In this document: in pieces, positions 21,731 through 23,337 of the stretch
Numbering within the stretch: the stretch's first letter is position 1
Layout of the letters: each line of letters begins with the position of its first letter
NCBI GenBank assembly: GCA_016939415.1
Contig: JAFGGZ010000035.1
Span: 1 to 33,239 of the forward strand
Direction: 5' to 3'
DNA: 33,239 nucleotides
Origin: Candidatus Iainarchaeum sp.
Lineage (GTDB): Archaea > B1Sed10-29 > WALL01
Position numbers and translations under genes: made by a program
Notes under the pieces: generated by a model
What the model saw: only the letters and a program-made list of their open reading frames with translations
Told to the model about the DNA's origin: nothing
Databases searched by the model: none

Positions 21731-22153
21731 ATGGCTTACAGCACTGACATGGAAGGCGCACGCGCTATGGGAAGGGGGATAGACATGTCCCCAAAGCACG
21801 CCATCGAGGTGTGCACAGCAATCCGCGGAAAGCGCGTCGAAGCGGCCAAAAAGTTCCTTGAGAACGTCATGACCAAAGAGGAGCACGTGCCATTCAAGCG
21901 ATTCAACAAACAGGTGCCGCACAGGAGCGGCGGGCCGGGCAGGTACCCAGTCAAGGCCGCGAAGCACATCTTGGGCATCCTAAAGAATGCCGAAGCCAAT
22001 GCGGACAGCCGGGGCATGGACACAGAAAGACTGTACATCGCCCACGCCAAAGCCGATAAGGGCAGGGCGTACGCCCGCAGGGCCGCGAAGGGACGAATGA
22101 AGACGCACACGTTGCAGACAGTCAACGTTGAAATCGTGCTCAAGGAGGCATGA
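21731..22153 (+). CDS. rpl22: Ribosomal protein uL22
   Basis: A 140-aa exit-tunnel protein. Marks are RAMGRGIDMSPKHAIEVCTAIRGKRVEAAKKFLENVM and a loop/strand YPVKAAKHILGILKNAEANADSRGMDTERLYIAHAKADKGRAYARRAAKGRMKTHTLQTVNVEIVL. The stop of uS19 runs into the SD GAGGTTGATT upstream of ATG 21731. The end carries AAGGAGG, the SD of uS3. Confidence 0.95.
   Translation: MAYSTDMEGARAMGRGIDMSPKHAIEVCTAIRGKRVEAAKKFLENVMTKEEHVPFKRFNKQVPHRSGGPGRYPVKAAKHILGILKNAEANADSRGMDTERLYIAHAKADKGRAYARRAAKGRMKTHTLQTVNVEIVLKEA
22142..22148 (+). promoter_or_regulatory. RBS that favours a TTG start for uS3
   Basis: AAGGAGG ends at 22148, 1 nt before ATG 22150 but 7 nt before TTG 22156. The TTG start gives MIERKFIQEG, the usual archaeal uS3 N-terminus. 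Confidence 0.6.
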
Positions 22154-22155
22154 AC

Positions 22156-22848
22156 TTGATTGAAAGAAAGTTCATTCAGGAAGGCATCGTGAGGAGCAAC
22201 ATCAACGAGTTCCTCAAAAGGAAGCTCAGGAGAGCGGGCTTTGTCGGCGTTGACATACAGAAGACGCCGATCATGACCCGCGTGGTCATACAAGTAGAGC
22301 GACCCGGACTCGTCATAGGAAAGAAAGGCTCCACGATAAGAACGCTCACTACTGACTTGGAGAAGCGGTTCGGCCTCGACAACGTTCAGATAAAGGTTGA
22401 GGAAGTAGGCGTGCCCGAACTCAACGCGGCAGTCATGGCAAGGCGCATAGCATCAAGTTTGGAGCGCGGCGTGAACTTCAGCCGCGTCATTAATTGGACG
22501 CTGGAAAAGATCATGGGGGCAGGCGCGCGCGGAGCAGAAATCATTGTCGCAGGAAAGCTCGTGGGCAAGGGCGGCAAGTCGAAGAAGCAGCGCGTCAATG
22601 CCGGCTACATGATGAAGGCAGGCGAGCCCTCAAAGCTCGTGCAGACGAGCCAGACGCAGGCCATAATGAAGGCAGGCATCATAGGCGTCACTGTCAAGAT
22701 AGTGCCGCCGGACGTGAGGCCGCCGGACAAGGTAAGCATAGAAAAGCACGCGAAAGGAGGTGAAACCGTTGGCAATACTAAGACCCCCGGAAATCCGGCA
22801 GATGAGTCCGGAGGAAAGGAAGGAGAAGTTGCAGCAGTTGAAGAGTGA
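22156..22848 (+). CDS. rps3: Ribosomal protein uS3
   Basis: A 230-aa mRNA-entry protein with a type II KH domain (VERPGLVIGKKGSTIRTLTTDLEKRFG; GxxG = GKKG) and a C-terminal domain (GAGARGAEIIVAGKLVGKGGKSKKQRVNAGYMMKAGEPS). TTG 22156 is preferred from SD spacing; ATG 22150, overlapping the uL22 stop, adds only two residues. After VRPPDKVSIE the last ~30 residues (GGETVGNTKTPGNPADESGGKEGEVAAVEE) are a low-complexity acidic tail encoded by the same DNA, in another frame, as the N-terminus of uL29. Confidence 0.94.
   Translation: MIERKFIQEGIVRSNINEFLKRKLRRAGFVGVDIQKTPIMTRVVIQVERPGLVIGKKGSTIRTLTTDLEKRFGLDNVQIKVEEVGVPELNAAVMARRIASSLERGVNFSRVINWTLEKIMGAGARGAEIIVAGKLVGKGGKSKKQRVNAGYMMKAGEPSKLVQTSQTQAIMKAGIIGVTVKIVPPDVRPPDKVSIEKHAKGGETVGNTKTPGNPADESGGKEGEVAAVEE
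22756..22763 (+). promoter_or_regulatory. Strong RBS that sets a TTG start for uL29
   Basis: GGAGGTGA is a near-complete anti-SD match, 5 nt before TTG 22769. The GTG at 22760 used by the ORF track lies within this SD and cannot be served by it. Confidence 0.75.
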
Positions 22849-23035
22849 ATTCTCGAAAGAGAAAGCTGCGGTTGTCAGCGGCACGCGCCCAGAGAACGCC
22901 GGCCGCATTAAGGAAGTAAGGCGGACAATCGCGCGCATACTCACAATCCAGAAAGAACCCGGCAAGAAAGCCGCGGAAAAAACCACAACAAAAAAAGAGG
23001 CAAAGAAAGAATCGGAGGTCGTTAAAAAGAAATGA
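22769..23035 (+). CDS. rpl29: Ribosomal protein uL29
   Basis: An 88-aa two-helix protein at the exit tunnel rim. The N-terminus MAILRPPEIRQMSPEERKEKLQQLKSEFSKEKAAV and GRIKEVRRTIARILTIQKE are typical, and the C-terminus is a Lys/Glu-rich extension (KKAAEKTTTKKEAKKESEVVKKK). The start is TTG 22769, chosen from the strong SD and the family N-terminus. The first 80 nt lie inside uS3 in another frame. The stop overlaps the aIF1 start as ATGA. Confidence 0.93.
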   Translation: MAILRPPEIRQMSPEERKEKLQQLKSEFSKEKAAVVSGTRPENAGRIKEVRRTIARILTIQKEPGKKAAEKTTTKKEAKKESEVVKKK

Positions 23036-23337
23036 CAGAGATGTGTCCAGCGTGCGGTCTGCCAAAAGACCTGTGCGTCTGTCAGGAAATTGCCAAAGAA
23101 AAGCAAAAGATTCGCATAAGGGTCGAGACGAAGAAGTACCAGAAGAGGATGACCGTCATCGAGAACCTGGACCCTGACACGGATCTGGAAGACATCTGCA
23201 CGCAGCTCAAGAGAAAGCTTGCGTGTGGTGGCACAGTCAAGAACGGGCGCATAGAGCTTCAGGGTGGGCGCACTGACCGCGTGAAAGAAGCACTCATAAA
23301 ACTAAACTTCCCAGAGGATCGGATTGAAACATCTTAA
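23032..23337 (+). CDS. Translation initiation factor aIF1 (SUI1 family)
   Basis: A 101-aa start-codon fidelity factor. An N-terminal four-Cys zinc motif MCPACGLPKDLCVC is followed by the SUI1 fold (VETKKYQKRMTVIENLDPDTDLEDICTQLKRKLACGGTVKNGRIELQGGRTDRVKEALIKLNFPED). The start overlaps the uL29 stop; Met at 23041 is a less likely alternative. Location between uL29 and Rpp29 is the common archaeal arrangement. Confidence 0.96.
   Translation: MTEMCPACGLPKDLCVCQEIAKEKQKIRIRVETKKYQKRMTVIENLDPDTDLEDICTQLKRKLACGGTVKNGRIELQGGRTDRVKEALIKLNFPEDRIETS

Follow-up and report, generated by a model that had tools for sequence, protein, structure and literature searches.

The question raised by this locus is how two ribosomal-protein genes, uS3 and uL29, came to share 80 nt of coding sequence, and whether selection keeps both reading frames.

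The uS3/uL29 junction

The window (the whole stretch of 33,239 nt that was analysed) is part of an archaeal ribosomal-protein operon. On its forward strand, the uS3 gene (22150-22848) is a single open frame of archaeal type, running from ATG to TGA and encoding 232 aa, which matches archaeal uS3 models with E values of 6.9e-75 and 3.6e-66 and reaches 222.6 bits against the archaeal/eukaryotic uS3 model TIGR01008 (cutoff 150.25). The uL29 gene (22769-23035, same strand) starts at TTG (22769-22771) and has L29 matches in both NCBIfam (TIGR00012, 55.2 bits, cutoff 22.6) and Pfam (PF00831, 60.6, cutoff 24.5). The two genes overlap in phase 1 at 22769-22848, exactly the 80 nt given by a sequence-only reading of this DNA, so that a uS3 codon takes its first base from the third position of a uL29 codon and its other two from positions one and two of the uL29 codon that follows. 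The shared bases hold the final 25 codons of uS3 and its stop. The uS3 stop TGA (22846-22848) is read as agT GAa (Ser-Glu) in the uL29 frame. Within the tail that had been quoted as shared, GNTKTPGNPADESGGKEGEVAAVEE and the stop truly lie in both genes, whereas ETV stands at the edge.

That reading had also placed a strong Shine-Dalgarno sequence (SD) and the TTG start of uL29 inside uS3, as we likewise found: GGAGGTGA (22756-22763, forward strand), the same bases of which serve as the GGE codons of uS3, ends 5 nt before the TTG. It is an 8-nt match, the longest among the 17 operon genes checked, and this result is unaffected by the misplaced uS17 start in that list of SDs and junctions. Overlaps of -4 nt were observed at four other operon junctions, namely uL3/uL4, uL22/uS3, uL29/SUI1 and uS17/uL14. 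Rfam and tRNA scans returned no match at the overlap and one tRNA-Ser elsewhere. The gene after SUI1 is, by position and sequence, a putative RNase P subunit Rpp29; if it starts at TTG 23324, it has an apparent 14-nt phase-1 overlap with SUI1 (23324-23337).

Overlap length among relatives and across archaea

uS3 was detected in 100 of 101 genomes, the one without a match being G007 (family f4, 66% complete). The overlap was exactly 80 nt in all seven genomes examined from the window's family (f1, G000-G004) and its sister family (f2, G005 and G008); both are families of uncultured archaea with small genomes, and the seven genomes span six genera. In each of the seven, uL29 begins with GTG or TTG, uS3 ends at the identical TGA, and the uL29 codon preceding the Glu is NNT, whether it encodes Ser, Asn, Thr or Ala. 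The overlap is thus kept in related genomes, and relatives with an earlier uS3 stop occur only outside this clade, so that the refutation proposed for relatives stopping before 22769 does not apply to the clade itself. Overlaps of 29, 38 and 38 nt were present in the three genomes of the third family of the order (f3), and of 0-53 nt in less closely related members of the class. Outside the order, 64 of 80 genomes start uL29 with ATG. On a tree of the uS3 core and uL29, the 80-nt state requires a single change (support 90/95 for f1 and f2 together, 100/98 for f3). A scan of a public genome collection yielded one locus only, apparently on the same contig as G001. As separate observations, uL29 of G003 (L005) carries a long Lys/Ala-rich C-terminal tail not present in other members, and an archaeon outside the phylum, G098, has two uS3 homologues on one contig (C23:51331-51933 and C23:1149-1688), with 54% and 32% identity to the window's uS3.

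We extended the comparison to 90 archaeal genomes in which both uS3 and uL29 were located (the start in L063 being uncertain). Overlaps of more than 4 nt were present in 34, all of them in phase 1 and none in phase 2, and overlaps of at least 50 nt in 12, comprising the seven of the 80-nt clade and five outside it; the long overlap, described earlier as unusual for ribosomal genes, is therefore uncommon but not exceptional. In archaea with no or a short overlap, the median distance to the first phase-1 stop within uL29 is 23 nt, and this stop is beyond 50 nt in 8 of 56, so that loss of the uS3 stop would mostly yield short overlaps and now and then long ones. Phase-2 frames of non-overlapping genomes run into a stop earlier, at a median of 13 nt, ten of them at ATGA. 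Similar EGNK/NE-rich uS3 C-termini were seen in unrelated archaea with long overlaps (L063, L099, L044 and L074), examples being EGNKSDERGGNEGE in L063 and DEGNKGNEQG in L074. These are a trap for comparison: EGNKxNE-like tails in unrelated archaea reflect only reading over the same conserved uL29 start, in particular its KEIREMS stretch, and not common ancestry of the tails.

The uL29 N-terminal sequence A-I/V-L-R/K-x-x-E-I-R follows the start also in archaea without the overlap, which argues that uS3 grew into uL29 and not the reverse. We consider it probable that the uS3 stop was lost in the common ancestor of f1 and f2 with read-through into uL29, that both frames have since been under purifying selection, and that uL29 is started independently. 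Because overlaps are short elsewhere in the class, we infer lengthening in the two families rather than shortening in f3. The stop-loss origin suggested by the sequence-only reading thus holds as regards the growth of uS3, but f3 and the class indicate that the extension probably began from an existing overlap, with the lost stop already about 20-40 nt inside uL29, and not from a clean boundary. Reading would then have run on in phase 1 until the following in-frame stop, the TGA of the Ser/Asn/Thr/Ala-Glu pair of uL29, and uS3 would have gained a hydrophilic, disordered tail.

Selection on the two frames

We estimated how often such an open frame would arise by chance by holding the uL29 protein fixed and drawing codons from local usage, taken from the 16-33 kb surrounding the operon. 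An open uS3 frame of this length has a probability of 0.48 in the window's genome and of 0.12-0.50 across the seven, and a single genome therefore proves nothing. For all seven jointly, with synonymous codons treated as independent, the product of the per-genome probabilities is 3e-5 (open frame) or 2e-9 (same stop). When 32% or 50% of codons are assumed to be inherited per lineage, these values become 1e-3 and 7e-3 for the open frame and 9e-6 and 3e-4 for the stop; this correction for shared ancestry is a rough star-tree model on seven genomes only, and the 32% share comes from the part of uL29 beyond the overlap, in which same-codon matches have a frequency of 0.383 (expected 0.312). In each genome, 3-7 single changes synonymous in uL29 would truncate uS3, and none has been fixed. 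It is the retention of one and the same stop by seven diverged genomes that goes beyond chance.

The base composition of the overlap bears the same mark of a second frame. T at the third position of uL29 codons, which is the first position of uS3 codons, occurs in 1 of 92 eligible overlap codons of the seven genomes, compared with a T-ending share of about 25% in codons 2-25 of other genes of the same genomes, in agreement with the third-position constraint that the sequence-only reading had proposed to look for. f3 serves as a natural control, with T-ending codons at 0 of 17 positions inside its shorter overlap and at 5 of 23 just past the stop. Even where no stop would result, T-ending codons are depleted across all genomes (8/92 inside vs 122/478 outside, P=2e-4), which indicates that not only stops but also amino acids are involved. 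mRNA composition around the start of uL29 might account for part of the depletion, though the first 24 codons of other genes show 25% T. uS3 would thereby limit the synonymous third positions of uL29 to almost no T and hold the TGA in place, leaving its tail with no early stop and few Phe, Tyr, Trp, Cys or Ser codons.

Identity among the uS3 tails is 0.339, compared with 0.253 (sd 0.018) in a null model that keeps the uL29 protein, the open frame and the stop constant, and none of 5000 draws was as high. Same-codon conservation of uL29 within the overlap is 1.46x expectation. Among 2000 windows of 26 codons from operon genes (mean 1.14, sd 0.14), 0.7% have a value at least as high, and the ten highest are uS3's own overlap, at 2.2-2.5x. 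The higher value for uS3 codons marks uL29 as the more constrained frame, as had been claimed; uL29 dictates positions two and three of the uS3 codons. The two frames constrain each other: these sequence comparisons point to uL29 as the dominant constraint and to uS3 as a weaker but real one. Since the uS3 frame marks the synonymous sites of uL29, its tail does not appear to be a free by-product, and both frames are presumably translated.

The alternative that survives best is that the uS3 stop was lost and the tail has merely been tolerated, with neither its content nor its end under selection. The per-genome probabilities of 0.12-0.50, the drift of tail charge and sequence, and simulations that account for long phase-1 overlaps without selection (PMC3887535) all accord with it, but it leaves unaccounted for the stop shared by all seven genomes, the depletion of T where no stop would form, the excess similarity of the tails and the raised synonymous conservation in uL29, and we regard it as unlikely. 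Under the favoured account, stop loss followed by purifying selection on both frames, selection would appear to act on a tail of given length and solubility. AlphaFold2, run on ten sequences, predicted uS3 residues 195-232 to be disordered (pLDDT <50) within an overall model of moderate confidence (mean 70), and solved chains of related archaeal uS3 align only as far as about residue 199-220. The net charge of the shared tail ranges from -5 to +2, so that the acidic character ascribed to it is not conserved. With sequence and charge so loosely kept, a specific function of the tail is not indicated. The proposal that the dual-coded tail has a specific ribosomal role, with the overlap as a device that couples small-subunit to large-subunit protein output, is unlikely. 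The best reading is of a maintained disordered extension of uS3.

Initiation of uL29 and known overlap types

Termination-reinitiation is described as working only where the stop lies between about -8 and +6 nt relative to the following start (PMC3887535; PMC10666635), and on this measure uL29, at -80 nt, cannot depend on termination of uS3, 77 nt downstream of its own start. It is likely that uL29 is initiated at its own GTG or TTG by means of the strong SD that lies within uS3. The overlap could in addition be regulatory, with the uL29 start inside uS3 tuning uL29 output, either because ribosomes translating uS3 expose the SD or through competition between elongating and initiating ribosomes, and with the TGA held 77 nt away to keep terminating ribosomes from interfering. 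Such a role would be compatible with stop loss and selection on both frames as an added layer, and is in keeping with the longest SD match of the operon and with the departure of this junction from the four -4 nt couplings. However, RNA structure that might hide the SD and start of uL29 gave no consistent signal (z -3.1 to +0.7), and T avoidance in non-stop contexts would be left unexplained; we consider a regulatory role unsupported and unlikely, slightly less probable than a merely tolerated tail. It is very improbable that uL29 extended upstream into uS3, or that its true start is a later codon, such as the in-frame ATG at uL29 residue 12, and the overlap only apparent: the conserved N-terminal sequence follows the start in non-overlapping archaea too, the SD spacing suits TTG/GTG, and in G002 an in-frame TGA immediately before the GTG leaves no room for a more upstream start. 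That assembly or sequencing error made the overlap, as the window's origin in a fragmented draft genome of 56 contigs might suggest and as had been named as a refutation, is rejected with near certainty, given the identical 80 nt in seven genomes of six genera.

Long overlaps are described as arising mainly through loss of the upstream gene's stop and as persisting in phase 1 (Fonseca et al. 2013, PMC3887535; PMC10666635). uS3/uL29 resembles these long unidirectional phase-1 overlaps in lying on the same strand, in fitting the -8, -11, -14... series (80 = 8 + 72), in elongation of the upstream gene and in the lack of close stop/start coupling; the uL29 N-terminus is constant while the end of uS3 varies by family, although the direction of change within the order is our reconstruction. 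It differs in the exact length kept across two families, in selection on both frames and in joining two ribosomal-protein genes, and its 80 nt exceed the -10 to -60 range discussed (PMC3887535; PMC10666635). The -4 nt (ATGA) termination-reinitiation pairs (PMC6728339) are likewise adjacent cistrons of one operon that share bases, as at other junctions here, but the uS3 stop, 77 nt past the uL29 start, is too far by reported distances, and the overlap is in phase 1 and not phase 2. In Thermus rnpA/rpmH (Feltens et al. 2003, as outlined in PMC9841429), a ribosomal-protein gene and a different essential gene likewise use the same bases in two frames; according to that outline, the pair is fully nested with one shared initiation site, whereas uS3 and uL29 overlap terminally, with a separate SD and start for uL29.

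We found no report of a uS3/uL29 overlap in the literature (open-access papers). Collectively, the overlap is genuine and ancient, is maintained by selection, and is a tidy example of a documented but uncommon type, the stop-loss overlap. It provides a clean, datable case between two universal, highly constrained genes, in which the length has stayed fixed while synonymous sites turned over, making the mutual constraint of two reading frames directly measurable.
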